A stretch of DNA of 64,000 nt from Stentor roeselii. Its lineage: Eukaryota > Ciliophora > Heterotrichea > Heterotrichida > Stentoridae. The stretch spans positions 62,001-126,000 of the forward strand of contig RSEH01000040.1 of the NCBI GenBank assembly GCA_006503475.1, written 5' to 3'. Numbering within the stretch: the first letter of the stretch is position 1; each line of letters opens with the position of its first letter. The notes under the pieces were generated by a model that saw nothing but the letters and a program-made list of their open reading frames with translations, was not told the DNA's origin and searched no databases. This document shows, in pieces, positions 28,382 to 53,000 of the stretch. The translations under genes and the position numbers were made by a program.

Positions 28382-28502
28382 GTGGCTAATAATTATTATC
28401 TAAATGGCAGAGAAGGCTTCACTGCCATGTTCCTTTCGTCTTTTGATGATTGGAAGAGTTTTTTGGTTAAGTTAGATTATTGCTCTTTTCGATTATTATA
28501 TT
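28382..28502. promoter_or_regulatory. Divergent promoter region of the eS7 gene
   Basis: 121 bp between divergent ATGs. It contains the 12-bp palindrome TAATAATTATTA (28387-28398) next to the eS7 start and a 7-bp inverted repeat ATGGCAG/CTGCCAT (28404-28410 and 28422-28428). GATTATTATATT abuts the plus-strand ATG. Confidence 0.5.
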
Positions 28503-28940
28503 ATGTCCAGTCTTGCTATCAAAGCTAGTCTTCTTCTTGAACACTTGATTTTCATGGGAAGGAATTCAAGGTGGCCTAATAAGGCTAATCATGGAGCCAG
28601 ACCTTGCTCTAGTGTCATGAGAAGAATGAGACGAGAAGCATATTATCATAGGCCTAGGGCTGAAGGAAATGCTGGAGTTGATATTGGCACCGATGATGAT
28701 GAGCTACGTGCTAGTGGAGATGATGAGGAACAAGGAGAAACTATCGCGGCCACTGATCAGGCTGGAACTGGACAGGGAGCTGGACAGGGAACTGGACAGG
28801 GAACTGGACAGGGAACTGGACAGGGTGGCAAGGATGCTGGAAAAGATTCAAAAACCCCTGCGAATCAAAAGGCCGGTGGAAAGGATGGTGGAAAAGGTGA
28901 CTCCGGAAAACAAGATTCTGCCAAGGCTAAGGGTAAATAA
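28503..28940 (+). CDS. Small protein with basic N-terminus and Gly/Gln repeat tail
   Basis: 145 aa. The N-terminus (MSSLAIKASLLLEHLIF) could be a mitochondrial or signal sequence. A basic Arg-rich block follows (NHGARPCSSVMRRMRREAYY, ~28-47), then an acidic patch and a low-complexity tail of GTGQ units and Gly/Lys/Asp. The RPCSSVMRRMRR block looks conserved-type and might belong to a small mitochondrial or ribosome-associated protein, but I cannot name it. It is divergent from the eS7 gene. Confidence 0.65.
   Translation: MSSLAIKASLLLEHLIFMGRNSRWPNKANHGARPCSSVMRRMRREAYYHRPRAEGNAGVDIGTDDDELRASGDDEEQGETIAATDQAGTGQGAGQGTGQGTGQGTGQGGKDAGKDSKTPANQKAGGKDGGKGDSGKQDSAKAKGK
28764..28823 (+). repeat. 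12-bp coding minisatellite
   Basis: Five tandem copies of GGAACTGGACAG (the second copy has GCT instead of ACT), encoding GTGQ/GAGQ in the tail of the small Gly-rich protein. Confidence 0.9.
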
Positions 28941-29172
28941 CACTTTAAGAATCAGAAGAAGTAAGTGAGTTGATGAGGGTTCCTTTGGGTATTATAAAAA
29001 TAATTCCTAAGAGTTAGACTGATATTTTTTAGGCTTACTCTAGATAAGAGTTGTTTTTCAAAGAAACATGTCATAGAGACTTATAAAAGATTATTTATAT
29101 TTGACTATGTATTAATATTCGAGCTGCACTAAAACAATAGAAAATCTAAGGTTTTAATAAGGGATATTTTGA

Positions 29173-30651
29173 TTAAGTAAAGCAAAAAAATTCATCTCGA
29201 TTATCTAATAGTGGTCCCTTATAATTACCATGAAAATCTAATTGTGGTCCTATATAATCACCGTGAAAATCTAATAGTGGTCCCATATAAAAATAAGGCT
29301 TTATTTCAATTTCATGAAAATAATTTATTTTCAAAAATGATTTCAAGTTATCCCATCTACTTAAACACTCTGAAGAATGGGTATTCAATTTACAACATGA
29401 AAATTTAAACTCCGAGCATAGTAGATCACAATCTATTTCAGAAAACAAAACATTCAATAAAGATTTTAATATGAGTTGATAAGATTCTTCCTGATAAAAT
29501 TCTCTAAAAAATGATTTATATTTTTTTTTCTTTCCCGAACTAAAAGTTCTAAGCTTTGTTCATCTTTCAAGCGTCTAAATATATCTGTGATTTTTTTCCA
29601 TTCTTCACGGTGATTCTTGTTGGTTATATGGAAAATAGTAGATGGGATCCTATACCCTATAAAGATATCATAAGCATTTTTCATTTGATCATACATTCTC
29701 TCGCTAAGATCGTTTAGTTCTGGGTGTTTATTGAGAGTTCGCTGTTTATTTGATTTTTGTGAAGGGCATTTTCTAAACTTTTTTAAAATTGTTTTTGATT
29801 CAAGTTCTGTTGATATTTCAAATGATGCGATATCAGATGATCTTAAGTCTTCCGAATCGGAGGATTCGAGAAGTTGATAAGATTTGAAATTTTCATTATT
29901 TACTCCGAGATTGGTCAAATACTGATTTTTAAGGTATTGTTCAAGATCGTTCCAAGATGATTGACATGAACTCGTATGAGTTTGGGAGGAACAGCAAAAT
30001 ATTTTTAATAAGTTACACAAAGCACTGCATTCAGTATTCGAAAAAATTATATCAATAATAACTTTAAAAGCTTCTTTATTAATATAATTATTTTCATAAA
30101 AATCTTTAAAATTAGAATTTGACAAAGATTTTTTCATATTTAGATTTTCATTGAAAGATTGCTGATTTTTAAGATAGATTGCTGATAGATCCAACCATCT
30201 TTGATATTGTTTTTGGTTGTTTATATCAATTTTTGTTAAGAATTTCTTAGGAACTTTACATTTTGAAATAAAGCGATAACAGTTTCTATTCCTTTGGTAA
30301 ATTTTAGATGGAAGTTTTTTGCTGTTGGTTTCTGATTATTCTTTGAGGTAAATTTCGACAATAGTTTTCTTAATGGTGTTGGCTCTCTTCCAAGTCTAGT
30401 TAAAGGTAAGGATTGAGTATTATAGATGACTTCATAATTACTTGTTGAGAATACGATAGATGTCATTTTATAGTTCTTAAAATCATCAATTTTTTCGTTT
30501 GATTTTAAATAACTTGGTGAGTATTTGTCAGATGTTATCTTATTGTCCTGAAAAACATCAATTTCTTCTTTGAATTCTAAATTATTTTGTGAGTCCTCAA
30601 AAAATCAATCTCTTCTTTGGATTCTGAATTACTTATTGAGTCAAATTTCAT
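29173..30651 (-). pseudogene. Family member A: broken two-unit CCHCW protein
   Basis: The member is spread over three to four frames. An ATG at 30651 (preceded by ACTATAAA as in member C) opens it. Reading shifts near 30600 (T6 run on the coding strand), near 30245 and near 29520 (A9 run). Two units survive: unit 1 (TKIDINNQKQYQRWLDL..., then CCSSQTHTSSCQSSW) and unit 2 (then CCKLNTHSSECLSRW). The tail carries an 11-residue repeat (GPLLDFHGDYI). It is most like member B (31258) in order. Two of the shifts sit in homopolymers and could be assembly errors; the one near 30245 does not, so I favour a decaying copy. The function is unknown, as for the family. Confidence 0.7.
29203..29283 (-). repeat. 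33-bp tandem repeat in the tail of member A
   Basis: Units start with GGACCAC at 29283, 29250 and 29217 on the minus strand, exactly 33 bp apart, encoding GPLLDFHGDYI, GPQLDFHGNYK and GPLLDN. Absent from the other family members. Confidence 0.85.
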
Positions 30652-31257
30652 TTTATAGTACTGTAAAAGAAAAATTTTGAAGGATCTAAAAACTTGAAAA
30701 TATTACCATCAAAGAGATATCTACTACCAATTGTCTACATTTTTTTCAAACTTTTGATAAATATACAATTTGATTAAACCTTATTAATGTTTAATAGATT
30801 ATATTACCATTAATTTATATTGAAGGCTCAAATCTTATAAATAAGAGTTTCTAATGTGTCATAATATCTCTTTAGTAAGCATAACTTTTGAATATGAACT
30901 CAAATTCAAGTAAGATTAATATCTTATTAAGAGTTGAGAATTATTATGTTTCCATAAGTAGCCTTATCAAAATAACAATTTTACTATCTGTCAATCCTTA
31001 ATGATATAGAGCTCTTTAAGGAATAAAATTTACCATAATCAACAATCAGAAATAATTCATCAATTACTTATTCGTATAATATATATTTAATATTATGGAT
31101 TAATTGATATTATATTTATATTAGTAGTCAAAATTTCACTTGGTGATGAAGGAACGACTTAGATCTTTATGACATATTCGTCTCACTCAATGTTATTAAT
31201 TTAAATCCTTGAAATTTAATCTTGATGCGATTAAATTTACAGAATCATATTCACATA
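30652..31257. other. AT-rich spacer in the family cluster
   Basis: 606 bp, very AT-rich. No gene or recognisable remnant of the family signature seen. Confidence 0.55.
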
Positions 31258-32538
31258 TTAAAAAAAATGAAAATGAGTTTCATTTGAAGTAACAACCTCA
31301 ATTTCTTTAAAATAATTGATCTTCAAAAAGTATTCAAGATCACCCCATTTATCAATACATTGAGAGCTATGTTCATTCAAATTACAACACGAAAATCCAA
31401 ATTCCTCACATAATTTTTTGCATTCCAATGGATCAAATATAACATTAAGTATACCTCTCAATATTGATTGCGTAAATTCTTCTGAATAAAAATTTCTAAA
31501 AAAAGTTTCCTTGTATTTATTTTTTCTTTTTTTTAAATATTCTAGCATGTTGTGATTCTTTGGATCATTGAAAATATGCACAATTTTTCTCCATTCAAGT
31601 TGATGATTACTGTTCTTCAGATCGAACACAGTTTTCTGTTTTGAGGGAAACTTATCTATATTAAATATTTTATAAAGTTTTTCGATTATTTTGATAAGTT
31701 TGATACTTAAATTTCTTAATTTTAGCCGATTTGTTGTATTGTGGTTTCTATTTGAACTACTCAATTCGAAGATACTGAATATATGATTTGAAGTTAATTG
31801 ATTTATGCAATATATTGAATGATTGACATTTAATCTAGAGTCTTGAGAAACATTAAAATCTGGAGCATTTTCTAAAGACTCTTCATTCAAAATTAAATGA
31901 GACTTAATCTCAATTTTTTCAAAAATAAGCGCATCTAATTCAACTAGATATTGATGATCTAAGTATTTTCTAAGATAACTCCAATTATTTTCGCAATTAT
32001 CAGAATGATATCTATAAGTACAGCAACTAAATCTAAACCAACTAGAGAGAGTACTTGAATCTGCATATTCAAAAAGAATAACGATTAAATATCGAAAAAT
32101 TTGTTGATTGATGAAATTACTAAAGAACTCTTTGAAATACGATGTTTTAATTAGTTCATTTTTACTTTTACAATAATTGTTCATATCATGTTTTTTTATG
32201 TATCCTTGAATATTTTTGTAGTTCCTGGCATTTATCACTGCTGCTTGCTTACTATATTCTTCATTGTTTAAGCATATAATTAAAAGATCGAAAAATATTT
32301 CATATAGGTTTACGTTTTTTATTATATTTTTAGGAACTCTAAAGGCTTGAATATCATTTAAAATACTTTTGATATCTTTATTAAATTTTTTGGCTATTTG
32401 ATTTTGTGTCAGAGGAGTTTCGATATTTGAAAAATTCAAAAGTACTTCTGATAAATTTTTTTGAAAACTTTCAGAATAATTCCTTTGAGTAGGTAACTTC
32501 GAAGTGCCTTCAAACTCTCGATTATGTTTACATTCCAT
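31258..32538 (-). CDS. Family member B: two-unit CCHCW protein
   Basis: 426 aa from the ATG at 32538 (MECKHNREFEG). The open frame reaches further upstream but without any ATG. Unit 1 ends in CCTYRYHSDNCENNW (Cys pair ~172-173), unit 2 in CCNLNEHSSQCIDKW (~384-385). Each signature is followed by L..(Y/F)L...Y(L/F).E(L/I) and preceded by a helical stretch of the type FFSNFINQQIFRYLIVILF. The region between units (~205-330) ends in a conserved block, NSNHQLEWRKIVHIFNDPKN. No known domain is recognised. Cys/His spacing suggests a small metal site. The protein is AT-driven in composition (Asn, Ile, Lys). Confidence 0.8.
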   Translation of the reverse strand: MECKHNREFEGTSKLPTQRNYSESFQKNLSEVLLNFSNIETPLTQNQIAKKFNKDIKSILNDIQAFRVPKNIIKNVNLYEIFFDLLIICLNNEEYSKQAAVINARNYKNIQGYIKKHDMNNYCKSKNELIKTSYFKEFFSNFINQQIFRYLIVILFEYADSSTLSSWFRFSCCTYRYHSDNCENNWSYLRKYLDHQYLVELDALIFEKIEIKSHLILNEESLENAPDFNVSQDSRLNVNHSIYCINQLTSNHIFSIFELSSSNRNHNTTNRLKLRNLSIKLIKIIEKLYKIFNIDKFPSKQKTVFDLKNSNHQLEWRKIVHIFNDPKNHNMLEYLKKRKNKYKETFFRNFYSEEFTQSILRGILNVIFDPLECKKLCEEFGFSCCNLNEHSSQCIDKWGDLEYFLKINYFKEIEVVTSNETHFHFF

Positions 32539-33228
32539 TAATATTTGTATGTAATAATATATAAAATCGATTAAAAATGTACCATCAATTGTAAAAGGTA
32601 GATTTGAAATAAAAGTAGATCTAGACAAGGTAGATCTCAAAAAGATAGATTCACTCCTATTTTTATATAGTAATCAAGAAAATATAGCAAGATTACATAT
32701 AAATATGCATTTTGATTGAATAATCACTGAATTTATACAAAAAAGTGTAGCCGGGTAGGATTAAATTTTTTTTTTTTAAATTGAAGTTGATTACATACTT
32801 TTATTATATTTGTTATAGAAATTAATAGATATTGTTAAATTAGTTCTTTTAATCTTAAAAAATTGTTAGTTTATACTGAATTACTTTCTTTTACCTATTT
32901 CCAGAGTTATTATGGTACATTTTTTTGTAAATTTCATTTTTGAAAATTGTATTTTAATTGAATTTCATTATTCCTCAAGTTTCAGGCTACTATTAGTTTA
33001 TAACATAAAAATTTAGAGAGAACCTGAAAACAAAATAAATCATATCCTATATCTTAAGCCAAACTTTAGTCAAACCTGCTGAAATGGCATCTATGGAATA
33101 TAATTTTCACATTACTTTACCCAGGTAGTTGTAATGACTCTATTTTGATATAAAACAGCCACTTAATTTAAAAAACTCCAACATTTCTAAGAATTGACAT
33201 ACGATCAGATTCATGTCCAAGAGAAGAA
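32539..33228. other. AT-rich spacer in the family cluster
   Basis: 690 bp with no supported gene. The frame of member B continues upstream to about 32680 without a start codon. Confidence 0.55.
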
Positions 33229-35169
33229 TTAATTATCAATTATTACTCCAAGGTCTACTAAATATTCACAATCCAAATACTCTTTAAGAGTATTCCACTT
33301 AACATTACATTCAATCCCATGACAATTTTCAGAGCAACAGGTAATCCTAAACCTTTCCGCAAGTTTCTCTGGTTGAAAATCAGAAAAGAATAATTTAACA
33401 ACAACCTTGAATGCGCATTGAACTGAAGGATGAGAAAAGAAATGCCTACAAAAAGCATTATCATGACTTTTATAAGTATTTTTTGAAATATATAGAAAAT
33501 TTTCTTCTTTTTTTCTATTCATTTTTCCGTCAGGTCCAAATATTGTTTTTGAGATTTTTTTTATAATTTCTGGGTTTTCATTGAAAATATTTTTCAACTC
33601 ACTCCAGCAACTAACTTCAGCAGGGATATTTTCATTCACTTTTATACAGGTTTTCGTTGGAATCCTATTCGAAACTACACATCGTAAAATTCGCTTAATA
33701 GCTCGGATTATAAAAACATTGAAAAAGATAGTCCTAAATTTTTTTTTTAAATTTTTCGTTTCGAAAGCTTCTAATATTTTAGTAAATCTGTTTTTCTGTC
33801 TTCTTGAGATGTTTATATCTGGAATGATTGATGAGTTGTTCAAGTCAGAACTTATTTGGTTACCTTCTTCAATGAACTTTAGATTATAAGGAGGATAGGG
33901 TGTTATTTCATTTATATATTTTGTGTTTAGGGATAATTTTAGAGAAGTCCACTTTTCGATACATGTTGAGGAATGGTCATCAGAACTACAGCAGAAAATT
34001 TCAAGCTCAGAACATAATTTCTGAATATTTGATTCTGAAAAAATCACTTCTAGTAAAGATTTCATTATTAATCGAGTAGCTTCTTGAGTGTAAAGTTTCT
34101 TTAAGAATTTTTCGTCATTTTTTACATTTTTTTCTTTAAGGTATTGAAATATTATTTCGTTTTTTTGGTCTCTAAAAATTTTAACGATAGTTTCCCATTC
34201 TTTTCTGTGAGAAGGATTTCTTAAGTCAAATAAACTATTTTCGGTAGAGGGAAGCTCTGCTTCAGTAAAAATTTTAAAAGTTTCTCGAATTCTAGTCACT
34301 AGCTTCTGGTTAATTTGATTTAATTTTAGTTGCTTTTGAGTAAAGGCCTTACAGTCAGGTATTTTCAATTTAAACTCCTTTAAAATCTCTGTCAAATCGA
34401 TTTCGTTGACCAGATAAAGTGAATCAACGGTTCTCATGCTTGAGTCTTCCCAATCAGGATTTGAAAATTTAGATTTTATTTCAAAGGGATCTTTACCTTC
34501 TTGATTTAAATTAAAACTCATGACATTAACTCTTTCATCAAATATTTCAACTTTTAGTTCAACCAAGTATTGGCTTTCAAAGAAGGTTTGAAGTGATTTC
34601 CATTTTTTTATACAGTCTTCGGAATGTAGTTCTAGGTTACAACATTGAAATTTAAACCTATTGCATAGCGAAATGCAATTCATCTCTGCAAAAATAATAT
34701 CAATAATAGCATAATAGGCAGTCTGATTTACCCTATTACTATAAAACTCTCTGCAAAAGGAATTATTTATAGATTTTTCATTTTTGCTTTCAAGAGATAC
34801 ATCGATTTCCATTTTCTTTCGTTTTTCCTTCCCTTCATACTCAGGGCCATTTATGGTCTGAGAAATTTTATTACAAAATTCTTGATTATTCAAACATAAA
34901 ACAAAAATATCTAAATATCTGGAGTATTGTCTTTCATTATTAATATCAATTTTCGTAAATGAGTTTTTAGAAGTTTTTGATTTTAAGGAATCCCTATAAC
35001 TTCTTTTTATACCTCGAATTATATTAACACTTATATTTTTTAGTCTTGGAAATCGCCCCTGCTTAGTTTTAAAATTTCCTAGGATAATTGTTGAATTTTT
35101 TGACTTTCTTCCAATCTGATTTAATTTTGTTTGATTTTGGTAGCTTTCTAGATTATAGTGTGTTCTCAT
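33229..35169 (-). CDS. Family member C: three-unit CCHCW protein
   Basis: 646 aa, ATG preceded by ATCTATAAA. Unit 1 ~45-210 (Cys pair 176-177; CCNLELHSEDCIKKW), unit 2 ~285-425 (393-394; CCSSDDHSSTCIEKW), unit 3 ~455-643 (611-612; CCSENCHGIECNVKW). Unit 1 and unit 3 start with an (I)IR(G/A)IKR helix and contain (T/C)IK(V/I)(D/N), ISxT..GP and a basic KRKK-like patch, then a helical block NxFCRxF(F/Y)S...Q.A. Unit 2 resembles the second unit of members A and B. Unit 3 resembles the single unit of members D and E, including the preceding KNRFTKILEAF. So C looks like an A/B-type protein joined to a D/E-type protein. No known family is recognised. Confidence 0.85.
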   Translation of the reverse strand: MRTHYNLESYQNQTKLNQIGRKSKNSTIILGNFKTKQGRFPRLKNISVNIIRGIKRSYRDSLKSKTSKNSFTKIDINNERQYSRYLDIFVLCLNNQEFCNKISQTINGPEYEGKEKRKKMEIDVSLESKNEKSINNSFCREFYSNRVNQTAYYAIIDIIFAEMNCISLCNRFKFQCCNLELHSEDCIKKWKSLQTFFESQYLVELKVEIFDERVNVMSFNLNQEGKDPFEIKSKFSNPDWEDSSMRTVDSLYLVNEIDLTEILKEFKLKIPDCKAFTQKQLKLNQINQKLVTRIRETFKIFTEAELPSTENSLFDLRNPSHRKEWETIVKIFRDQKNEIIFQYLKEKNVKNDEKFLKKLYTQEATRLIMKSLLEVIFSESNIQKLCSELEIFCCSSDDHSSTCIEKWTSLKLSLNTKYINEITPYPPYNLKFIEEGNQISSDLNNSSIIPDINISRRQKNRFTKILEAFETKNLKKKFRTIFFNVFIIRAIKRILRCVVSNRIPTKTCIKVNENIPAEVSCWSELKNIFNENPEIIKKISKTIFGPDGKMNRKKEENFLYISKNTYKSHDNAFCRHFFSHPSVQCAFKVVVKLFFSDFQPEKLAERFRITCCSENCHGIECNVKWNTLKEYLDCEYLVDLGVIIDN

Positions 35170-36422
35170 TTTATAGATATTAAAATTCGTAATATTTTTT
35201 CGATTTGGATAATATATTAAAAGATAAGTGTTAGGAAATGGTATAAAAATTTGTATTCTTAACTATATTAACTTGTGCTGCTTGAAGATAATAGAAAAAG
35301 CAAAGACTTTAGATTTCATTCGGTTTTCAATATAATTATGGATATTAGGAACAATTGATACTAATGATTGCTTTTATATGGGTGAAACAAATGTCTATTT
35401 GAAATATTAGTAGGATTATCACCATGATCATAGAAAGGTCAACCAAAATATTAAATACGAAAGAGCACATAGACAATAATTAAAATAATAAATATATAAT
35501 TTTTTCAGTAATCTTTTTGAGGTTACATGTAATTTATTGTTTGAGTTGATATCTATGATCATTTGTATTTACAACAACATTTGAAGAGTTCTAAAAAGAT
35601 TGAGAGCCTTAAATTCATGTAAAGACCATAATACTTATGACTTTAAACGTAACCTATAATCATTAAGCATAATAAGAGGACTTTGTAACCTCATCATTTT
35701 ATTTATATATTTCGAATCAAGCCATATCCTATTTTAATGCAATCTTTAAATTATAAACAAATGTTTTTCTTGAAGAATATAGTTTCGGGAATCAATTTGA
35801 ATATGATGAGATTCTTAATTCTGGCTATTTGGGTTCCAAGGTTTAAGTGTCTATCATATGAAATCAATTCATGCTATCGAAGTAATGATTAATATCTGCT
35901 TATTTTCTTCTATTTGCCGGTAATTAGATTATAAAATTTTGTAATACTTTTCAAGGTCTAAATAATTATTGAACTACTCCAGAACAATCAGACTAACATA
36001 AAAATATTAAATGTAAATTGATTTATTATTACAATAAAAGAGTCGTTTTCCAATCAACCACAAAATGTTTCTGTATCTTTTAAATCTTCACAAACATTTT
36101 ACCCTCAAGAATTTATCGAAAAATTAATGAATTTGAATAAAAACTTATCTACAGTTAGGATTTTTATGATACCTACTTGAAAAACAGACTCCAGTTGGCA
36201 ATTAATTTTAATAATAATACAAATTTGAACCCAGGGATTTTTACTCAAACTTGAATTAATAAAGTTTCTATCCTTATATTTAAACTGAGTCAAAAAGTAA
36301 ATAAAATGATAACTCCAAACACTTAATCTTGAAAATAATGAATAGATACCATATAATAAGCTAAACTAAAGTAAAAAAATGATATATTCGAAAGCCTAAT
36401 ATTTTCTAATAGGAATCTAAAT
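35170..36422. other. AT-rich spacer in the family cluster
   Basis: 1253 bp without supported genes. I looked for the family's Cys-Cys/His/Cys/Trp signature on the minus strand and saw no remnant. Confidence 0.5.
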
Positions 36423-37181
36423 CTAATTAGGATCTTCTAGAATAAAATCAGAACACTCAATACCAGTATCATCCCCAACTAATCTCACTTCTAAATCTTC
36501 AAAATAATAACGATCCAAATAATCTCTAAGTTTTTCCCACTTTTGATTACAAGCATATTCATGACCCTTTTCTGAACAGCATCTAAATCCAAATCTTTCC
36601 ACAAGTATTGAAGGCTCGAATTCAGAGAATAAAATATTAAAAATAGCCCGAAAAGCTCTTTGAACTAAAACTTCTGAAAAAAAACTCTTACAGTAACTAT
36701 TGTTAAAACTTTTACTAACACTTTCAGGACCAGCACCTTTTTTTCTCTTTCTCTTTCCATCAGTTTCAGGTCCATTTTCAGTTTTTGAAATTTCTTCAAT
36801 CAAAGAATAGTTTTCTCTGTAAATTCTTCCAATTTCTTCCCAGCTTTCAGCTTGGACCGGGTTTAAAATATCGATTTTTATGCAAGTTTTTTCAGGGATT
36901 TTTCTGTATATCAAACATCGAAAGGCTCTCTTGATAGCTCTGATAATGAAAGTATTAAAAAACTCTTTTTTAGGTGGTTTATGCGATTTTTTGGTTTTGA
37001 AATGTTCTAAGATTAATGTAAAACGATTTTTTGACCTGCCGAGAGTTAAACTGTGAGAACTTGAACCTGCGGTGTTGTAAGTGAAACTTGAGCTGAATTT
37101 CATTTCTTCTTGTGAAAATTGCTGGACTGGGCTTCCTGTCGAATATATAAAGTATTCTGCTACATCGATTGAATTTTCCAT
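36423..37181 (-). CDS. Family member D: single-unit CCHCW protein
   Basis: 252 aa. The N-terminus (~1-48) is Ser/Thr-rich. KNRFTLILEHFKTKK (~51-65) leads into the unit: FIIRAIKRAFR (~78-88), KTCIKID, SWEEIGRIYREN, ISKTENGPETDGKRKRKK (~131-148), FNNSYCKSFFSEVLVQRAF, then FGFRCCSEKGHEYACNQKW with Cys 201, 202, 211, His 207 and Trp 215. The basic KRKRKK run could be a nuclear localisation signal (inference). It is closest to member E (39892), sharing long identical stretches. Function unknown. Confidence 0.82.
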   Translation of the reverse strand: MENSIDVAEYFIYSTGSPVQQFSQEEMKFSSSFTYNTAGSSSHSLTLGRSKNRFTLILEHFKTKKSHKPPKKEFFNTFIIRAIKRAFRCLIYRKIPEKTCIKIDILNPVQAESWEEIGRIYRENYSLIEEISKTENGPETDGKRKRKKGAGPESVSKSFNNSYCKSFFSEVLVQRAFRAIFNILFSEFEPSILVERFGFRCCSEKGHEYACNQKWEKLRDYLDRYYFEDLEVRLVGDDTGIECSDFILEDPN

Positions 37182-38435
37182 TATATTGGAGGTTTTGTGC
37201 CATCATTAGGAAAATTAGTAAAAATTTATCTGGAATGTTGATAAAGAAGTTCGATGAGTGATTTCAAAGGTTTATGAAAAAAAATTTAAAATCATTTTTT
37301 ACTATATTTCTTTTATTTTGTAGAATTATCTATTGTATTTATATGGAATAAAACCCAATTGTAGACTGTAGAAGATTGAGGTAATCGTTTATTATGTGAA
37401 TAATTTCACTTTAGTTTAATGTTGAAAGGGCGAAATTAAGACTTAAGAAAATTATTTATGATTTATTGTTCATATATAAGTATTAGCTTCTTGAATGGAA
37501 ATTATTCTGAAATATTCTAAATTCATGGCGTTTCTACGTGAATTTGATTGAATAGCTTTGGATGGTTAAAGCTATAAGCTTCAATCGTTTACAGATAATA
37601 TATTTCATATTCTAAAGTGATTTATTATGATTATGTTTATACAGATCTAACTTTGAGATAAATACTTTATATTATTGGAAAAGAATTGAAGAGATTAGAT
37701 ATAAGTAAATTATTTCACATTATCAATTCCATAGACTAATCAGAGTACCTATAACTATGATTGACTTAAGAAATGCTAAAATTATTTAAAGAATAGTCCA
37801 TCTTCAAAAAAAATTTGTATATATGCATGCCCTTACGCTAGTTTCAAGTTTTTAGCAAGATTTTCAAGAGAACTATTAGCAGATGCTCAAGTCCAGTTCA
37901 AAGGATTTTAATATATAACAATATCCATAAATTAATAGAATAGAAGGTAAAAAGGGTAAGGATATCATTATCTCAGCACTTTAAACTGCATCTCAATCTT
38001 TGTATGTTTTTTAAGTTATATTAAATTAGATTTATTATCATATAAAGAGATAGAAATGCATGCTTATCTTTTCTTATGAATAAAGAGTATAACATTTGAG
38101 ATATAAAGGAATGAATTGATAGATCATGCTTAATTAAAGATTATCACCTGGTTGCCGATATTTTAATATAACCTTACTCAGTAGATCATTATATTAAATT
38201 CTCTTGAATATTTTTGTATATTTAATACCTAAAATTTTAAAATATATCAAATTCAGCATCAAGTATTATCTTTACATTCATAAACTTTTATATATCTTTC
38301 TTCATATGAAGTATCTTGTATCAATATTTGAAAAGTTTAGAAAGGTAGCGAATACTTAGGATTATTTAAGAGTTTATAAAATCGACCTTCAAAGATAACT
38401 AAATACCATTTATTAGATTAGATGGAAAAGAGAAT
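37182..38435. other. AT-rich divergent spacer
   Basis: 1254 bp between the divergent starts of member D and the DHHC gene. No gene or repeat recognised. Confidence 0.5.
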
Positions 38436-39176
38436 ATGAAGCTCTGGGGTAAAGGAATCAACGGGATTTGGATGGTTTTCTTAACTTTAGTCATGATCTT
38501 CTTTGTAAGTTTGACTGTTTTTAACATTCTGATACCTTGGATTCGTGAAAAGATGATCCTTGCAATATTCGGATATGGATTACTGATCCTTTTACAGGCA
38601 TTAGCTTGCTGGAGTTTTTTGATAAGTTCTTTTTCGAATCCAGGAATTGGAACAGCTGAGAATATAGAAGGTGCCAGATGTGGAAAATGTGGAATAAGAA
38701 GAGACATCAGCTCTCATCACTGTTCTAAATGCAAAGTCTGTGTTTCAGGTATGGACCATCACTGCATTTGGATTAATAACTGCGTCGGATCTGGTAACAG
38801 AAAAACTTATGCACTTTTTTTAGGTTACACTGCAAGTTACTGTGTTGTAAGCATCATAATCATTGTTTGGTGTAAGCTTTATTGTTACAAGCGAATTGAT
38901 GAGTATTGTATCGAGCAAGGGGTTTATTTTGCTGAGTTTTCGAAATTATTGTCGATTGGGCTCTGTCTTTTCTTTTTAGTTTTTCTTATTTACTTAGCTG
39001 TCGAACTTTTTGAGTCAATTTCTACTGGAAGGGCGGGTATCGATAGACTGAAATTTGGAAATGTGAAAGATCATGAAAAAATAGCATTTTCTAAAGTTAT
39101 GCGCGGGTTTTCATTGGCTTGGCTAATACCTTACAATTGCTCTACTCATGTAATCCCTCTTAAAGTTAACGAATAG
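38436..39176 (+). CDS. DHHC palmitoyltransferase
   Basis: 246 aa. Two N-terminal transmembrane helices (~10-32, ~38-60) precede the Cys-rich DHHC domain: CGKCGIRRDISSHHCSKCKV, then CVSGMDHHCIWINNCVGSGN (~78-116). Two further helices (~123-145, ~175-197) follow. The catalytic DHHC and all zinc-ligand Cys/His are present. The enzyme S-palmitoylates cytoplasmic Cys of target proteins at Golgi or other membranes. At 246 aa it is a small member with a short C-terminal tail. It is the only plus-strand gene within the CCHCW cluster and shows no sequence relation to it. Confidence 0.93.
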   Translation: MKLWGKGINGIWMVFLTLVMIFFVSLTVFNILIPWIREKMILAIFGYGLLILLQALACWSFLISSFSNPGIGTAENIEGARCGKCGIRRDISSHHCSKCKVCVSGMDHHCIWINNCVGSGNRKTYALFLGYTASYCVVSIIIIVWCKLYCYKRIDEYCIEQGVYFAEFSKLLSIGLCLFFLVFLIYLAVELFESISTGRAGIDRLKFGNVKDHEKIAFSKVMRGFSLAWLIPYNCSTHVIPLKVNE

Positions 39177-39891
39177 ATAAGAAATGTTTTGGAAATAAAC
39201 TTTTGGATATCAAGAGTAGTTAACTAATAAATATCTCATTAAAATTCAATATTTAAAAGATTTGAAGTACTAAAACCCTCAACTTAATTATCATAAAACC
39301 AAATTTCATCAGAGATCTTTCAAATTAATAGAAACCTCTGAGAATATTATTATATTCCTTGGTAAAACTTAATAGACCTAAATCCTAAGTAAAATAAAAA
39401 TTTTTTGTTCTTTTTTTGAAAAAGTGTATTTTAGATGAATAAAAAAGATTTTTCAATATATACTTTTTTCTTCTTGTTGAATTTTAAAGCATATGAAATT
39501 GAAAAATAATCCAAGAAACAATTATTAGATTATTGTTATAGATTTTCCTATATTCGGATTCTAAATCTTAGTCTAGAATTAGTTAAATTAATGTTATTTT
39601 GCTTCTGCTACTGGCGAAATGGGTTGTTTAATGCTTTAGAGTCTTAAACCGATTTAAATTACATAAACTAATTGAGTATACAAATTTATTAAAAATATAG
39701 AAAAATCTTTATATTCGTAGACTAGAGTATTAGTTTAAAATTACAGAAATTTGAGTTATCACAGATTACTTTTCATCGAGATTGATATCTTAAAGTACTT
39801 TTGGGTATTTATAATTATTTTTTCTAAATCATCAAAATTTAAAATCAACCAATAATTAAGGTCTTATCTAATAAAAATTATCCTAGCCGAA
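39177..39891. other. AT-rich convergent spacer
   Basis: 715 bp between the DHHC stop and the member E stop. No gene recognised. Confidence 0.5.
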
Positions 39892-40695
39892 TTAAAATTC
39901 AGGAATCATCATCGGAATTTCATCAGAATTCGTAGGATCATAATTTGAAATAACTTCAAGATCTTTGAAGTATCGATTATCAAAATAATCCTTAAGTGTA
40001 GTCCACTTACTTTCACATTCAGGCCCATGTTCTTTATGAGAACAGCATCTAAAGCTAAACCGTTTTTTAAGTTTTTCAGGTTCGAACTCCGAAAACATGA
40101 TCTCGATAACCGCATTAAAAGCCCTTTGCACTAAAACTTCAGAGAAGAAACTTTTACAGAAACTGTTATTAAAACTTTTGCTAATATTTTCTGATTTTTG
40201 ACTATTTCCATCTTTTCCTTTTCTTTTTGGTTTCCCATCAGTTTCAGGTCCATTTTCAGTTTTCGAGATTTCTTCAATCAAAATAGGATTTTCCCTATAA
40301 ATATTTCCAATTTCAGTCCAATTTCTGGCTTGTGCAGGGATCCTTTGGTCGACTTGTATGCAAGTTGTTTTCGGGACTTTATTCGAAATCACACAACGAA
40401 AGGCTCGTTTAATAGCTCGGATGATGAAAGCATTGAAAAATTCCTTTTTCGGGGATTTTTTGGTATCTCCTGACCTGAAAAGGTCTAAAACATGAGTAAA
40501 TGCATTTTTTGTCCTTCCTGGAGCCCCTCCCCTTGAAATGGAACTCGAGCCAATTGAAAAGTACAAGTCAGAACTCAATTGAATATCTCTCTCGATAGGA
40601 CTGGAAATCTCCCTCGCGTATAAGTTTGAAAGGCCGAGGTCAGGAATTTCATCGAGAAGTTCAGCTGCTAAGTCAATATCAGTTTGCATGTTCAT
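39892..40695 (-). CDS. Family member E: single-unit CCHCW protein
   Basis: 267 aa, start context CTAATAAAT. Leader ~1-60 acidic/Ser-rich, then KNAFTHVLDLF (63-73), FFNAFIIRAIKRAFR (86-100), TCIQVD, NWTEIGNIYREN, ISKTENGPETDGKPKRKGK (143-161), FNNSFCKSFFSEVLVQRAF (175-193), MFSEFEPEKLKKRFSFRCCS (200-219). Signature residues: Cys217, Cys218, His223, Cys227, Trp231, followed by LKDYFDNRYFKDLEV. It is the clear sister of member D. The best-preserved block lies in the last 90 residues of the unit, which suggests that this is the functional core. No known domain recognised. Confidence 0.83.
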   Translation of the reverse strand: MNMQTDIDLAAELLDEIPDLGLSNLYAREISSPIERDIQLSSDLYFSIGSSSISRGGAPGRTKNAFTHVLDLFRSGDTKKSPKKEFFNAFIIRAIKRAFRCVISNKVPKTTCIQVDQRIPAQARNWTEIGNIYRENPILIEEISKTENGPETDGKPKRKGKDGNSQKSENISKSFNNSFCKSFFSEVLVQRAFNAVIEIMFSEFEPEKLKKRFSFRCCSHKEHGPECESKWTTLKDYFDNRYFKDLEVISNYDPTNSDEIPMMIPEF

Positions 40696-40998
40696 ATTTA
40701 TTAGTTGATTAATATTACCATTTAAGTTTCCGCAAATAATCTATATTCGAAAAAAATGAAAAAGGCAAGAAATAATTTTTTAGATTTTAAAAACTTTTTT
40801 CGTGTTTAAAAGAAAATTTCTCATCAAATTAAAAAATTTTTGGATTTTTCATCAAAATGAAAAAATTTCAGATTTCTGTGATTTTTTTGAAATTACTACT
40901 TTTGCCCAGTCATTAATCTTTCACTTTCGAGTCAAATGTTTTTTCCTTGCTTAAAATCCAGCATCGCCTAAAAATGTCGAAGCAAGTCTGGAATATAA
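40696..40998. other. AT-rich divergent intergenic region
   Basis: 303 bp between the divergent starts of member E and the small membrane protein. No feature beyond the usual A/T run before each ATG. Confidence 0.5.
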
Positions 40999-41412
40999 AT
41001 GACATCTTTTAAGACCGCTCAAGAGAAAGGACTTAAATGGCCATTGGGCCCAGACGACCTCTGCCCTTCCAAGATCGAAAATGTTTACCTTTATGGAGGA
41101 GGAAGAACAGACCGTCTTAAAAACCTCTTGGCTACGATTTCAGTTGGATGGTTTGGTAGCATTTGGGCTCTTGACAAGTATCTTACCAAAAACAGGGCGA
41201 ACGTTGCGAAGAACTACTTCTTGGAAAGGGTTTGTGTTCATTCCACAAGATACTTCTGGCCTGTAATGTTCGTTTGGTGGGTCGGTCTTCCGATCAGCCA
41301 GAGCTTCTACTGGTGGCTGTTAGATGTATCAGTCGGAGCAAAGCCGACGATATCCAGAAACCCACGACCTAACTGGCCTCCAGGGCAAGGAATGCTTGAT
41401 AGAGCTCAGTAG
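40999..41412 (+). CDS. Small hydrophobic/aromatic-rich hypothetical protein
   Basis: 137 aa. N-terminal MTSFKTAQEKGLKWPLGPDD, a possible helix at ~44-60 (LATISVGWFGSIWALDKYL), then an aromatic membrane-like segment at ~84-108 (STRYFWPVMFVWWVGLPISQ) and a Pro-rich end (RPNWPPGQG). Codon use is richer in G/C than the spacers around it, and the sequence does not look low-complexity, so it is likely real and conserved. The composition would suit a ciliate-specific mitochondrial inner-membrane complex subunit (inference). The stop is followed by TTAGCTAA, the same sequence as at the adaptin gene end. Confidence 0.7.
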   Translation: MTSFKTAQEKGLKWPLGPDDLCPSKIENVYLYGGGRTDRLKNLLATISVGWFGSIWALDKYLTKNRANVAKNYFLERVCVHSTRYFWPVMFVWWVGLPISQSFYWWLLDVSVGAKPTISRNPRPNWPPGQGMLDRAQ

Positions 41413-41420
41413 TTAGCTAA
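41410..41420. terminator. Stop codon with TAGTTAGCTAA element
   Basis: The 11 bases starting at this TAG stop are identical to those starting at the adaptin stop (17444). TTAGCTAA is a palindrome. Possible 3' end signal; two occurrences only. Confidence 0.3.
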
Positions 41421-41591
41421 GTTAGGTTATTCAGAAATAAACCTCACTCAAATACCAACAATTCTCAAGTCTCAACTTCTTCCACCCATCCTTCTCAAGT
41501 TCTTCCTGAAACATCATCATCCTCAATCAAAAAAAAATTCCTTCTCTACAACATAAACCTCATCAAAAAATAATACAATCCTATATAATCC

Positions 41592-43031
41592 TTAACTATT
41601 CTTCATCATCAACTGGCCATATTCAGCCATTCTCCCTTCTTGGTTTTTATATGCTTCAATCTCTTCATCTCTCACGTCAAAAGGCGCCTGACTCATCGGA
41701 TTCCCTGTCACTGGGAAACTCGGGACTACTTTCGGATGATTTTTTGTAAACTTGACTTGTTGAAAAGCTGGATGAGCAGCGAGTTCAGGAATATTGCTCT
41801 GGTTTTTTAAATAAGTGATTGACGGGTCTTTCAAGTTATAAGAAGGAAAACTTCCATAAACGTATTGAGCAGTGTCTTTTAAAACTCCAGTGATCGGGTT
41901 GTAACAAATGGTTTTCGGGGTCTTTTTCGTGAAAGAAGCAGGGGAATAGCCTAAGTTGCTGTTTGAGTTGTTGCTTCTGATTGGCTCGTAATTCTGAGGA
42001 GGAGCTTCAAAGGGCTTGGGCAGGTCGTTTCTTTGGAACATTCTTTCTTGGTTTCTTATATTTGACTTTACAAGATTCTGAACTTCAAGTTGTTCTCTGT
42101 ACTCCTTCGCCCTTCTGAGCTTTTCCATTCTTTCAAAAGCTTCATCTTCTTTAAGTTTCTTCAACATTTCCAGCCTCATCGCTTGTTCCCTGTCTTTTTC
42201 CTGCTGATATAAGGACTTCATGCGATTTTTTTCATTTAACTGGTAGTCAAGGGTAGAACTGTTGATTTTTCTCTGGTCTTCTATTCGCTGTTTGTCAAAC
42301 ATGGCCTTGTTAATGCGACTGTAGATGGCTTCTTGTGATTCAACTTGTTTAGTCGGTGTTTTATTGAAGTTTTGATTGTAAGTTGCGAGTTCTTCTTCTT
42401 TTCTTCTAAGTTCTTCTTTTAACTTTTCAATCTCGTCGTAGTACTCGCCTTGTTTTGGCTCTTCTGAGGGTCTGGCTTTGAGAGACTCGTCTTGATGTCT
42501 TGGGTAGTCCTGTGTTGGTTGAAACTTCGCATCTTCATATTGTCCTCCAGCTCTAACATCTCTGAAAGAGTCGTTTGAAGGCCGGTCTTCGTAGTTGTTT
42601 TCGTATTGAACTTCCGCGTCGTACTTCGGGCCTTGTGAAGGGTTCGAAGGGTAGTTGGGGTAGTTTTGATAGTTTTGATAGTTTGGAGGATTTGATGGAT
42701 TTGATGGATTTGATGGATTTCCTTGTGACGCCCCGTAGTAAGGATAACTTGAGTCTCGCAAAGACCCTCCTTTCGCCTCTCCTGCCTTGTATGGGGAATA
42801 TTTGCTGGGATCTTGGTAGTCGCCTTGTAATGGGTATGCCACTGAAGGGTCCTCTGGGTAAGACTTTTTACCTGCGTGGCTCAGGCCATAACCGTAGCTT
42901 AAACCTGATGACTCTTCGTTTTTGTGAACATCGAACCTTTTTCGGCCGGCTCTTTGCTCGGAAACTGAGTATTCTAGTTGGGGGTGGCTTACTTTCAAGG
43001 CACCTCGGTCGTATACTGCACTGTAATTCAT
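41592..43031 (-). CDS. Coiled-coil protein with Asn/Pro/Tyr repeats, probably cytoskeletal
   Basis: 479 aa from the ATG at 43031 (MNYSAVYDRG), preceded by CTTATTAAT. The frame extends 18 bp upstream but only to a TTG. Residues ~1-190 are Tyr/Ser/Pro/Gly-rich and disordered, including a repeat zone (NPSNPSNPSNPPNYQNYQNY). A charged coiled coil runs ~195-345 (EIEKLKEELRRKEEELATYN). The C-terminus (~370-479) has short Pro-containing motifs (TPKTICYNPITGVLKDTAQY) like those of microtubule-associated or luminal ciliary proteins (inference). It is divergent from DRC8 with 26 bp between ATGs, which could mean co-expression with ciliary genes. No ortholog named. Confidence 0.75.
   Translation of the reverse strand: MNYSAVYDRGALKVSHPQLEYSVSEQRAGRKRFDVHKNEESSGLSYGYGLSHAGKKSYPEDPSVAYPLQGDYQDPSKYSPYKAGEAKGGSLRDSSYPYYGASQGNPSNPSNPSNPPNYQNYQNYPNYPSNPSQGPKYDAEVQYENNYEDRPSNDSFRDVRAGGQYEDAKFQPTQDYPRHQDESLKARPSEEPKQGEYYDEIEKLKEELRRKEEELATYNQNFNKTPTKQVESQEAIYSRINKAMFDKQRIEDQRKINSSTLDYQLNEKNRMKSLYQQEKDREQAMRLEMLKKLKEDEAFERMEKLRRAKEYREQLEVQNLVKSNIRNQERMFQRNDLPKPFEAPPQNYEPIRSNNSNSNLGYSPASFTKKTPKTICYNPITGVLKDTAQYVYGSFPSYNLKDPSITYLKNQSNIPELAAHPAFQQVKFTKNHPKVVPSFPVTGNPMSQAPFDVRDEEIEAYKNQEGRMAEYGQLMMKNS
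42645..42720 (-). repeat. 9-bp coding repeats
   Basis: GGATTTGAT on the plus strand (AATCCATCA-like on the coding strand) is repeated with related TAGTTTTGA units, encoding NPS and NYQ repeats. Confidence 0.75.
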
Positions 43032-47003: not shown

Positions 47004-47050
47004 TAAAGTCCTTCAGTAATCGATTCCCTCCATAACATTATAATATTCAA

Positions 47051-50000
47051 ATGAAGCCTTCAACAGGACCAAGTCCCATTCCACGACAGTCGCCAGGGCC
47101 TAAGAAGCCTTTGATCCACGTTGACCCTCAGCGTGTTCATGACTTGCGAAGTCGACTAGTTGACCGGGGAATATCCCCGAATCCTCTTCCTTCAGTCAAG
47201 CGTCCAAAGATAACAAACAGTTCCCTTAACCGTCCTCGCATGCCAGTCGTTCCTCAGCACGTTGAAGAACCTGCAATAAAACCTGACTCGAGCTTTTCAG
47301 TCATTCGCCCGCGGAAGAATGATGAACATTCAGGCTTTGTCTCAGTTGGAAAACTCAGACCTACGACGGCAATTCGGAAAAAATCAGGAAGAAGGGAAAA
47401 TGAAACTAGTTTCGCTTCTCTTTCAAGACCTGTGACGAGTCAGCATAAGTTACAACCGTCGATGAGCAATAATTTTTCAAATGATGACTCGAAACGGGCG
47501 ATGAAACTATTGGAAAGGATGCAAGGTTCACATAAGCATATTAAAGTGATTGCTACTACGCATAACCCGTTATTCGTGAAGGAGGACTCGGAGTATAAGA
47601 TGAATGAACTGGTGGAGGATAAGATTGGAGAAGTTGATTTGTTTATCAAGTCCCTGCAGGATGATAAAAAAGATATGGGGTTTATTTATTGCTTAGAAAA
47701 TCAACCACATAACCCTTATGACTTGAAAAAAATCATCAGTCCTCAGGAATACGCTGAGTATTACACGCTCAGTAAGAAAGGCATCGCTTTTTTCATCAAT
47801 GGCTCACCGATTGAATTCACCAGACTCTCTGACTGGCTGGTAGAGAGAAAAGCTTACAATCAACTTAAAAACATCTCTTTTTTTAAGAAGTTCCGCACCT
47901 GGAAAACTTGCATCATGTGGAAAAGAAAAGTAAACCGTTATCGAAGAAATAAAAGAAGTAAGAAATTAGTTGAAAAACTTTTCTGGCTTAATGGGATTTA
48001 CAGTGAAATGATTCTTCAACACCGAGGCACTTGCGTTGATATTGAAAGGACTCGCTTCATGGACCTCACTCCGATTCCTGAAGGTTACACCGTCGACGGG
48101 TTTAAAGAACTGCAGAGAAAAAGACAGGCAGAAATCAAGGGAAAATTAGCAGAAATCGGTGAAAGTATGAGAGAAAACGTCAATACTCACATCAAGCAAA
48201 TCATGGATATCCTCAGAGAAAACATTGTCAGTCAAATGGCAGGTCAAAAAACAAATCCCCGGTCAAGCAACAACCTGGCGCCTCCAGGTCGTCACATGTG
48301 CGCACTTTACGAAAAGCTAGGATTTCCAGAGAACATGTCCTTCGAGCACCGTTCTCATCTACGTAAAGAATGTTCAAGATTTCTCCGTTTTTCCTATCTT
48401 GCTGATTTCTTCGTCCTTGAAAGTCTCTATCGAATTTACATCTCTACTTGTGAAGAATTCGTTGACAGGATTTCAGACCTGGTGAATCTTTTTGATAGTC
48501 AAGAAGTGAAAACAAAACGATTGAAGCATAATAACCCGATGTTCATCCTGGAGCTCATCATGTCACCGAAGAAAGTCCCGAAGGGAGAGCTGGTGTCAGT
48601 CAACGTGTTTGACTACCTCCCTGCTCCTCATGGGTCTTCGACGTTAGACGACTTTTACATCCCGCTTCACTTGTCACTGATGCCAGAGTCAGGAGAAGAC
48701 CTGCAACTTCCCCTCGAGCCTGATGAGCCAATAGGGAAAAAGCCTTCAGTTCCTAATATTCTAAGCCTGTGGCTTTCAGTCCATCCTCATCTTGACAGTT
48801 TAGTTGAAAATATTATTGACGTCATTTCTGATGGCATTTCAAGCATGCTGGTCATTGAACGTTGGAGTCGACATCATGAAATTCAAGACTTCGCCACTGC
48901 TCTTGAGGACTGGGATGATAAAGTCGCTGATGTCTGGGAAGTCGCCCAGGACCTCAGCCTTGACCCCAGGCAGTGGCTTCATGATCACCGGCTTTTTAAT
49001 AACTTGACTGAGATCTTGCAGGGACTGCTTTCAAGAGGGTATGACCAGGCTGTGAGTCTTTTGGGCCCTCTGCATTATTTTGTCCATACCTACTGGGAAA
49101 ACTCGACTTATAATTTAGAAATACTTGAAAATGACCAGCTTCGAAGTCAGCCTGAAGCTTTTTCGCATACTTATCAGAAGTTTTCAGTACAGAATAAAAA
49201 ATTTCAAACTATCGGCAATTTGATTAACACCCAACTACTCAGCATTCATTGTTCTAATGTAAAGGAAATGCTGATAAAATCACCTCAGAAACACTTGAGT
49301 TATATAATCAAACTCATGCCGAACTTGATGAAGAGAAGATGCCTTCAAATTAAAGAATGGTTCAATAATGCTATTAAAATTCTTCCTGTCAAGATTTCGA
49401 ATGTTGAAGAATTTGTGACGCAAAGACAGGCCCTGGCTCAGATTAATGTCAGTCTTGGTGATAAGAAGATACTTTTAGGGTGCTTGTCGCAGTTGTATAC
49501 TTTGGCTCAGATACTTGATGTGCCTTTTCCTAGAGAAGATTTGGAAGAACTTGGAGAGGTGAGCTCTTTGATGTCGGTTCTTACTAATAATATCATTTTT
49601 GCGGAAAGTAACAATGATAAGTATGTTATGATCTTTAGAAAGGATGTCAATCAGATGGTTCCTGATTATGTCAAAGAAGTTAATGGTCTTACTACTAAAG
49701 TTGTTGATGATAAGTATTTGGCTATTCAGTCGATTACTAGTATTGTTATTAGGGAACTTGAGGAATATTCCGAAAAATGTAGAGCGCTTGAAAAAAGAGC
49801 TGAAAGGATTAATATGTATCAGAAAATACTTGATTTGGCTGTCTCCGCCTTTACTGACATTGAAACATTAAGAGAAGATCTCGACCTTCGCCTTTCTCTC
49901 TGGACAGCCCTTCGCAACTGGCTCTCACTTCAAAGTGAATGGAAATCGACACCATTTTCCAAAATAAACGCAAAGTTCATCCGAGAACGTTCAGAAGAAT

Positions 50001-53000
50001 ATTCAAAAATCGTATCAAGATGCGAAAGCACCCTGCCGCCGTCCTCGACACTCACTGAGTTAAAATCTTTGGTTTTTTCATTTAAAGAAACTATGCCAGT
50101 TGTAGAAGCCATGCGAGTTCCTCTTGAAGAGTCTCATTGGCGGAAAATAAAAGTAATTATTGGACGTGATTTCGAAATAACTCCGGAATTTACCTTAGGC
50201 GACCTCATGAAAATGAACGTTGTGACAAAGCAAGAAGAAATTCAGGCAGTTGCTACACAAGCAGCTCAAGAAGCGCAGCTGAAGTCACAGTTGGAAGAAA
50301 TTAAAGTTTTGTGGCAGGACCAAGAACTACCAGTCCAAGGTTTCAAAGACATAGCAGACGTATACATTTTAGGTGACTTAGAAGAGATGCTAAGTATTTT
50401 AGACGACTCCTGCGCAAAACTCAGCAACATTGCAGGTAATCGTTACGTGGCCGCTCTTCGTGACGAGGTAAACAAATGGAAAGACGACTTGAACACAATG
50501 CAAGACATAATGGAAGAATGGATAAACTGTCAAAAGGCCTGGATGTACCTCCAGAACATATTCTCAGGAGGCGACATAAAAAGACACCTTCACAACGAAA
50601 GCACCATGTTCGAAGGCGTCGACAAGTTCTTCAAAAACCTCATGAAAAAGACCTTCAACCGGAACCAGGCCTTAAGAGCCACAATTGGAAGCCCAGGTCT
50701 TTTAACAGAGTTAAAAAGACACAACGCGACTTTAGACCAAGTCCAAAAACAGCTAAACAAATACCTGGAGACTAAAAGAAGAGCTTTTCCCAGGTTTTAC
50801 TTCTTAAGTGACGACGAACTTCTCCAGATTCTCGCAAATTCTCAAGATGTACAAAAAGTCCAGCCTCATCTAAAAAAATGCTTTGATAACATCTACGCCC
50901 TTGACTTTGGAAATGACCCGAAAAGTGTTGATATCTACGCCATGGAGTCACAAGAAGGGGAAAAAGTCAGCTTTTTAGGAAAGGTCTTAAAGGCAAGAGG
51001 AAATGTTGAAGAATGGCTCGGGTCTGTTCAGACCTCTATGGTCGAAGTCCTTTCGAAACTCATGATCATCGGAAAGGATGACTTGGAAAATTCTGATCGA
51101 AAAGAATGGGTCCTTAAACATCCTGGGCAAATTGTCGCTACTAATACTCAGGTCGCTTGGTGTAATGAAAGTGAAATCGCGATTGAGTCTATGCCTGAAA
51201 ATTCTAATTCTTTGGATGAGTGGTATGCTACTAATGGTGTTCAGTTACAGGCTCTTGTTGAACTTGTTAGGGGAAATTTGACTTCGCTTCAGAGAAAAGT
51301 TGTTGTTGCACTTATTACTACTGATGTACATAATCGAGATATTGTTGAGATACTTAAAAATGAAGGCGTGGAAACTGTACAGGACTTTTTGTGGCAACAG
51401 CAGTTGAGGTATTATTGGGAAGGGGAATTGATTGTGGTTAGACAGATCAATGCTATTCTTAGTTATGGATATGAGTATATGGGTGCAACTTCAAGACTAG
51501 TGATCACTCCACTAACAGACCGTTGTTGGATAACAATAACAAGTGCTCTAAACATAAAACTCGGAGCATCGCCAGCAGGCCCAGCAGGAACAGGTAAAAC
51601 CGAGTCAACAAAAGACTTAGCCAAAGCTATCGGAATGCAATGCGTGGTCTTCAACTGTTCTGAGCAAATAACCTACAAAATGATGGGTCGATTATTCTCA
51701 GGCCTTGCTCAGCAAGGCGCATGGAGCTGTTTAGACGAATTCAATCGAATTGACATTGAGGTACTTTCAGTTATTGCTCAGCAACTTCTAACTATTCAGA
51801 ATGCTTTGCGCGAAAATGCAAGCGAGTTTTTGTTTGAAGACTCAAGTATTCCATTGAAGCATTCTTGTGGAGTCTTTATCACAATGAACCCAGGATATGC
51901 AGGTCGAACAGAACTTCCAGATAATCTGAAAGTTTGTTTCAGGCCAGTCGCAATGATGATTCCAGACTACGCGATGATCGCTGAAATCATGCTTTTCGCT
52001 GAAGGTTTCTCAGAAGCAAAAGTCCTAAGCAAGAAGATGGTGCAGCTCTACAAGCTGGCATCAGAGCAGTTATCCCAACAAGACCACTACGATTTCGGAA
52101 TGAGAGCCGTAAAAAGCGTACTAGTAATGGCCGGGGAGGTGAAAAGGGCAAGTCCGACCCTAAGCGAGGACCTAGTTTTAATCCGAGCAATGCGAGACTC
52201 GAACATTCCAAAGTTCATCTCTCACGACATTCCATTATTCGAGGCACTAGTAAAAGACCTGTTCCCATTAATCGCGATATCTGAGCCATCTCAAGGTGAC
52301 CTTGACCGTCAAATCGCTTTATCAGTTCAAAACTTCAAGTTACAAAGGGTAAAAGCCTTCGAAAAAAAAGTAGTCCAACTCTTCGACACCCTCACCGTTC
52401 GCTTCGGCGTCATGCTCGTCGGCCCGACAGGCAGTGGGAAGTCAGCCTGTCTGAAAGTCTTAAGCGACAGTCTCAGCAAGTTAAGAGAAAAAGGCAACAA
52501 AGATAAAAGATTCCAAAAAGTCGACATGACCATCATCAACCCGAAGTGCATTTCAATGGGAGAGCTTTATGGAGAAGTCAACCCTTTGACCCAGGACTGG
52601 AAAGAAGGACTCGCGTCTTCTATTATGAGAAATGCCGCTTCTGAAAAAGGCGAGGATAGGAAGTGGATTGTCTTTGATGGGCCTGTGGATTCACTGTGGA
52701 TTGAAAATATGAACACGGTGCTTGATGATAACATGATGCTTTGTTTGGCAAATGGAGAAAGAATAAAACTCACTTTTCAAATGAGGATCTTGTTTGAAGT
52801 TCAAGATCTGGCCGTTGCGTCTCCAGCGACTGTTTCCAGATGTGGAATGGTTTATCTTTCCCCGGAAGACCTTGGGTGGAAACCTTTTCTTCAGTCCTGG
52901 CTCGCTGTGAACATCTCAGATGACCAGCAAGAATTCCGAACTTCTATTTTAAAACTCTGTGAATCAGTTTTTCCTCCAATCCTGAAATTCAAGAAAAGCG

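Follow-up and report, generated by a model that had tools for sequence, protein, structure and literature searches.

The main trend among specific transcription factors in eukaryotes is that one DNA-binding family expands per lineage, examples in the available part of PMC3537659 being ApiAP2, the C6 fingers of Naegleria, and MYB in ciliates, Entamoeba, and Trichomonas. The same part of that source deals with the ALOG regulators of land plants, which arose from the DNA-binding part of a transposon and whose predicted DNA-binding domain is all-helical and carries an insert with a metal site between helices (PMC3537659). Here, we describe a protein family from a ciliate that resembles ApiAP2, C6, and MYB in having many paralogues of one domain in a single genome, and ALOG in pairing a predicted, mostly helical domain with a putative metal site. 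Nine copies of its domain lie in a stretch of 64 kb, hereafter the window, which corresponds to bases 62001-126000 of contig C295 in a genome of 44.39 Mb assembled in 522 contigs.

Scanning the window in six frames for CC-x4-H-x3-C-x3-W returned exactly nine matches, all on the minus strand (two each at loci A and B, three at C, and one each at D and E), while the motif was absent from 100 sequences of equal length generated by a first-order Markov model. This bears out the nine copies at five minus-strand loci listed in an initial annotation of this DNA (Table 1). The conserved blocks that it had noted upstream and downstream of the motif are also present in an alignment of the nine units, where F141, L149, C157, C158, H163, C167, W171, L174, and Y182 are invariant. 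Other parts of that description need to be narrowed. B, C, D, and E are open throughout, but locus A passes through three frames, and its break inside 29466-29559 includes a run of nine A; the broken frame would reflect either a decayed copy, an unrecognised intron, or a sequence error. The spacing of the motif, said to be invariant, is so in the nine window units but not in the family, where the exact motif was found in 45 of the 63 pieces scored (two of these are fragments that end short of it). As for the basic run reported to precede the motif in several copies, the strict form KRKRK/KEKRKK occurs in D and C1 only, with looser basic runs in E, C3, and B2. Genes D and E are 64% identical across the domain.

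Most of the cluster lies in an AT-rich part of the window (30001-40000, 24-28% GC); the median for the 15 other window ORFs is 38%. The neighbourhood contains two short tandem repeats, a 12-nt repeat GGAACTGGACAG at 28764-28825 (5.2 copies), in a plus-strand frame adjoining the eS7 gene, and a 33-nt repeat at 29203-29290 (2.7 copies), where the end of locus A consists of repeated GPLLDFHGDYI-like sequence. Further along, a plus-strand frame of 4164 residues runs without interruption from 47036 to 59530.

Table 1. Genes and domain units of the family in the window (positions count from the first base of the window).
Feature	Position	Strand	Motif	Description
Gene E	39892..40695	-		267-residue open frame, one domain, acidic N-terminal tail
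Domain unit E	39940..40503	-	40003-40047	
Gene D	36423..37181	-		252-residue open frame, one domain
Domain unit D	36477..37025	-	36537-36581	
Gene C	33229..35169	-		646-residue open frame, three tandem domain units
Domain unit C1	34537..35097	-	34600-34644	
Domain unit C2	33886..34398	-	33949-33993	shortened linker
Domain unit C3	33232..33789	-	33295-33339	
Gene B	31258..32538	-		426-residue open frame, two domain units
Domain unit B1	31918..32493	-	31981-32025	
Domain unit B2	31282..31794	-	31345-31389	shortened linker
Locus A	29173..30651	-		two units; frame breaks inside 30236-30335 and inside 29466-29559
Unit A1	29889..30332	-	29952-29996	portion in one frame
Unit A2, C-terminal lobe	29290..29559	-	29353-29397	N-terminal half in another frame, 29472-29801

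Alignments of the nine units, and then of 57 members from the genome, revealed a conserved unit of ~185 residues with two conserved parts. An N-terminal block reading approximately PKKEYxRxxLIRxxKKxIR stands far upstream of the motif and is followed by a linker (often GPxTDGKxKR), then by KSxNxxF...FF, and finally by the CC/H/C/W motif. When this unit was modelled with AlphaFold2, using the nine window units as alignment with unit E first, we obtained a pLDDT of 80.3 and a pTM of 0.78, with linker residues 92-116 under 50 pLDDT, while the C-lobe modelled alone, again with unit E first, gave a pLDDT of 81.9 and a pTM of 0.70. The motif, which had been taken for a small module in itself, is thus predicted to form one section of the C-terminal lobe in a ~185-residue domain. 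The model of unit E has short strands at 14-15 (early in the N-lobe) and 155-156 (just before CC), the second of which is missing from the model of the C-lobe alone; these two strands, for which DSSP gives no strand partner, suggest that the two lobes pack together. In the same model, Cys157-158 come directly after the short strand, His163 just before a helix, and Cys167 in the first turn of that helix.

The conservation of the motif residues points to a metal site. Among the 57 members, all have the last Cys, 55 have CC, and 55 have the W; PV or PK replaces CC in two members. The Cys and His residues of the motif are all within 11 positions of each other in sequence, and the loop from CC to the last Cys is 8 residues long in 43 of the 55 CC members. 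A loop His is present in 46 of these 55 and missing from 9, and a loop Cys was found in 8 of the 9 His-less members vs. 4 of the 46 with His (Fisher p 3.4e-6, a value that is too small because the rows are related and not independent). Such His/Cys swaps are scattered over several distinct branches of the tree. There are also departures from the pattern: L060 has CC without a fourth ligand as aligned and is, like L043, a rearranged form, while in L040 both CC and the site are lost. Swapping of this kind is the pattern expected of a metal ligand, and we infer from it a supported, if putative, metal site, so that the "metal-binding" in the initial annotation's "small metal-binding module" gains support while the "small" does not. 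The metal would most likely be zinc, and it would be unusual for one zinc ion to be bound by two neighbouring cysteines. The CCHC zinc knuckle, C-x2-C-x4-H-x4-C, shares with our family the order C, C, H, C and the four residues from the second Cys to the His, but in our family the cysteines are adjacent, three residues separate His from Cys, and the site would be inside a large helical domain. We rejected this candidate, since 9 of 9 window units read C-C-x4-H-x3-C instead.

That the family contains no known domain, as first proposed, was upheld by searches of Pfam, NCBIfam, PDB sequences, and structures (Foldseek), none of which produced a credible relative, and profile comparison with Pfam and NCBIfam gave no strong match to a known domain. 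When the 57 members were compared with Pfam at E<=10, the commonest family among the matches listed (the best 25 of 31 and the best 25 of 49) was CFAP97, with 3 of 57 members, and every other listed family matched 1 of 57 (best E 0.0011). In NCBIfam, 14 families were each matched by 1 of the 57 members, with a best E of 0.0018. Curated Pfam cut-offs were compared for member 1 and the six window proteins, none of which passed any. Nothing better than E 0.52 was found among PDB sequences or better than E 0.5 by Foldseek in PDB and viral models, and neither the domain as a whole nor the C-lobe by itself gave a DNA-binding fold in Foldseek. L007 used as a single query, which reaches close relatives only, had no relative in prokaryotic or viral contigs.

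The likeness to Hemingway/CFAP97 (PF13879) amounts to weak matches of 3 among the 57 members, the best at E 0.0043, and it was rejected at 14.0 bits for gene D, 17.2 for gene E, and 18.2 for unit E vs. a cut-off of 25.6. The window has a true CFAP97 gene at 59636-60961, which scores 48.8 bits. ALOG, going by the available part of PMC3537659, has HxxxC and CxC, whereas the order in the present family is CC, H, C. We rejected this candidate as well: in place of the ALOG metal motifs between helices 2 and 3 (PMC3537659), 45 of 63 family pieces have CC-x4-H-x3-C, and there was no ALOG profile among the Pfam matches listed (best 25 of 31; best 25 of 49) and no fold match. Our domain also differs from those of ApiAP2, C6, and MYB proteins, and the Pfam matches listed include none of the AP2, C6, or Myb profiles. 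The last helix, C-x2-K-W-x2-L-K-x2-Y/F, resembles by eye the third helix of Myb/SANT, trihelix, and MADF domains. No profile of these three was found among the matches listed (those beyond, in one list, are single members at E about 0.08 or more), and the model of the C-lobe (pLDDT 82, pTM 0.70) had no Foldseek match in PDB.

The family extends well beyond the window. Protein searches of the same genome with six queries gave 60, 66, 33, 31, 33, and 53 matches, with a cut-off of E<=0.001 except for the second and third queries (66 and 33 matches), for which it was E<=0.01. After merging matches within 250 nt, the domain is at about 74 places on 55 of the 522 contigs, a figure in which the weakest places may be chance and in which merging fused two C92 genes and two gene C units. 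In DNA extracted around the matches, the family profile picks up 71 pieces (E<=0.01), which are spread over 67 open frames, most of these pieces having themselves been used to build it. Complete single-domain frames have ~175 to 375 residues, and there is usually one domain per short gene. Short genes with variable tails are also found in the ApiAP2, Naegleria C6, and MYB expansions.

Most copies are open. In one genome search under the standard code, 57 of 60 family matches were stop-free, as were 3 of 3 for uL3 and 21 of 23 for tubulin, and the standard genetic code therefore fits this genome; a few family copies (C227, C477) have several stops inside. The 23 tubulin-family matches include some that are partial. 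Alpha-tubulin usually ends in tyrosine, and one alpha-tubulin-like protein (L082) ends in EEEEAA without this residue. A search of the genome for alveolin (PF12314) gave no match, which is odd for a ciliate.

The cluster had been presented as a recent expansion, which the divergence of its copies does not support. Our own pairwise count (Nei-Gojobori scheme) gave a dS of 1.47 and a dN/dS of 0.19 for D and E. Twelve pairs were tested, 5 of which were saturated in dS while the remaining 7 had dN/dS values of 0.11-0.39; since all seven unsaturated pairs are this low, the family is under purifying selection. In a tree of 57 units, the seven that come from the window do not form one group, three label changes being required, and C3, D, and E group with a C92 gene with modest support (80/93). 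Taken together with the spread of matches over 55 contigs, these findings show that the family is old, evolves under purifying selection, and has seen some tandem growth but no recent burst.

The domain is strongly basic. In 56 of 57 members it carries a positive net charge (median +11), most of which stems from the N-lobe (median +10), and K/R occupies three positions (i, i+4, i+7) of one helix in 95, 96, and 93% of cases. Basic residues stand directly before the domain, which makes a nuclear location plausible. The tails are different. Of 22 C-terminal tails, 20 have a negative net charge, and N-terminal tails have a median net charge of -2 vs. +2 in control N-termini. The controls for the composition rules below were open frames near family members (89 frames, or 65 for the looser threshold) and not verified genes; for the tails, length-matched N-termini of such frames were drawn. 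We applied to 39-residue tiles the improved rule for acidic activation domains, as set out in the available part of PMC10550315. It was satisfied by 13 of 38 N-terminal tails (control mean 1.0, maximum 4 in 300 draws) and by 18 of 61 whole proteins (control mean 5.2, maximum 12); gene E qualifies with its residues 5-44. With the stricter original rule, again as it appears in that part of the source, 3 of 38 N-terminal tails (control mean 0.4, maximum 4) and 6 of 61 whole proteins (control mean 2.3, maximum 7) qualified, both inside the control range. A looser threshold of our own selected 17 of 38 N-terminal tails vs. 5.6 in controls (maximum 13).

Since a basic domain with a putative metal site and activator-like tails is encoded by dozens of short genes under purifying selection, the family may represent an expanded set of DNA-binding transcriptional regulators, a reading that we consider evenly poised between right and wrong. 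Because no relative of known function was found, the case for DNA binding is built from charge and architecture. In such regulators, a mostly helical domain of ~185 residues would be flanked by variable tails. Its N-terminal lobe would present the conserved basic face of a long helix (the PKKEYxRxxLIRxxKKxIR block), and a variable linker, often with the GPxTDGKxKR run, would lead to the C-terminal lobe, where C-C, H, and C, which precede the W of the last helix, would form a structural metal site, most likely for zinc, that fixes this helix. The basic domain would hold DNA in the nucleus, the acidic, aromatic-rich tails would recruit the transcription machinery, and members would differ in target sequence and in tail. 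A second regulator family is not needed in this organism, since Mybs already make up a very large family in its genome, with at least 150 scored repeats, all above the Pfam cut-off, out of 249 candidates.

The same evidence can be read in other ways. A basic domain with a basic helix face would suit any nucleic acid, and the family could therefore consist of RNA-binding or general chromatin proteins, in which the metal-containing domain would bind RNA or DNA regardless of sequence, RNA processing being one possible setting. We think this rather unlikely, given that nothing specific indicates RNA and that activator-like N-terminal tails are enriched over neighbouring frames by one of the two published rules. 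Alternatively, the domain might be a docking scaffold in protein-interaction adaptors, basic so as to receive acidic partners, with tail motifs as ligands. One such motif, D.IEP, is present in 6 of 50 N-terminal tails (L070, L053, L039, L040, L043, and L058) vs. a mean of 0.07 and a maximum of 2 after shuffling, or in 6 of 58 tails and 0 of 65 control frames when recounted with a larger set, and genes B and C string together two and three domains, as adaptors might. Yet K/R at 93-96% of three helix positions would be more typical of phosphate contacts, and we consider adaptors improbable.

Origin from a mobile element, domesticated or still active, would have the domain derive from the DNA-binding part of a transposon and its copies spread by transposition, which would account for matches on 55 contigs and for those with several stops at C477 and C227; ALOG regulators have such an origin, according to the available part of PMC3537659. 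We rate this possibility as low. No inverted repeats were found in window 28500-42000, the region in which flanks were searched, and the sole block shared within it, besides the two short tandem repeats, is D/E coding sequence. By eye, no family frame has a transposase-like part (the full-length Pfam scan covered the window genes), 57 of 60 matches are stop-free, and the tested pairs are under purifying selection. Finally, many protist surface families combine conserved cysteines with expansion, and those of the present family might thus form disulfides in secreted or surface proteins. This is very improbable, since disulfides would leave the His/Cys ligand swaps unexplained and no signal peptide is evident by eye in the family frames.

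The preferred reading, in which these proteins are DNA-binding regulators, has a stronger form that we put forward tentatively and hold to be doubtful: the domain might define a new DNA-binding class that combines a compact CC-H-C metal site with a fold absent from PDB, and the proteins carrying it might make up one of the major transcription factor families of a protist lineage, alongside its Mybs. It is an open question how large sets of genes are controlled in protists that have few recognised transcription factors. For apicomplexans, the discovery of one overlooked domain, ApiAP2, provided the answer. If the domain described here does bind DNA, it would provide dozens of candidate regulators in one genome and a new metal-containing DNA-binding fold.
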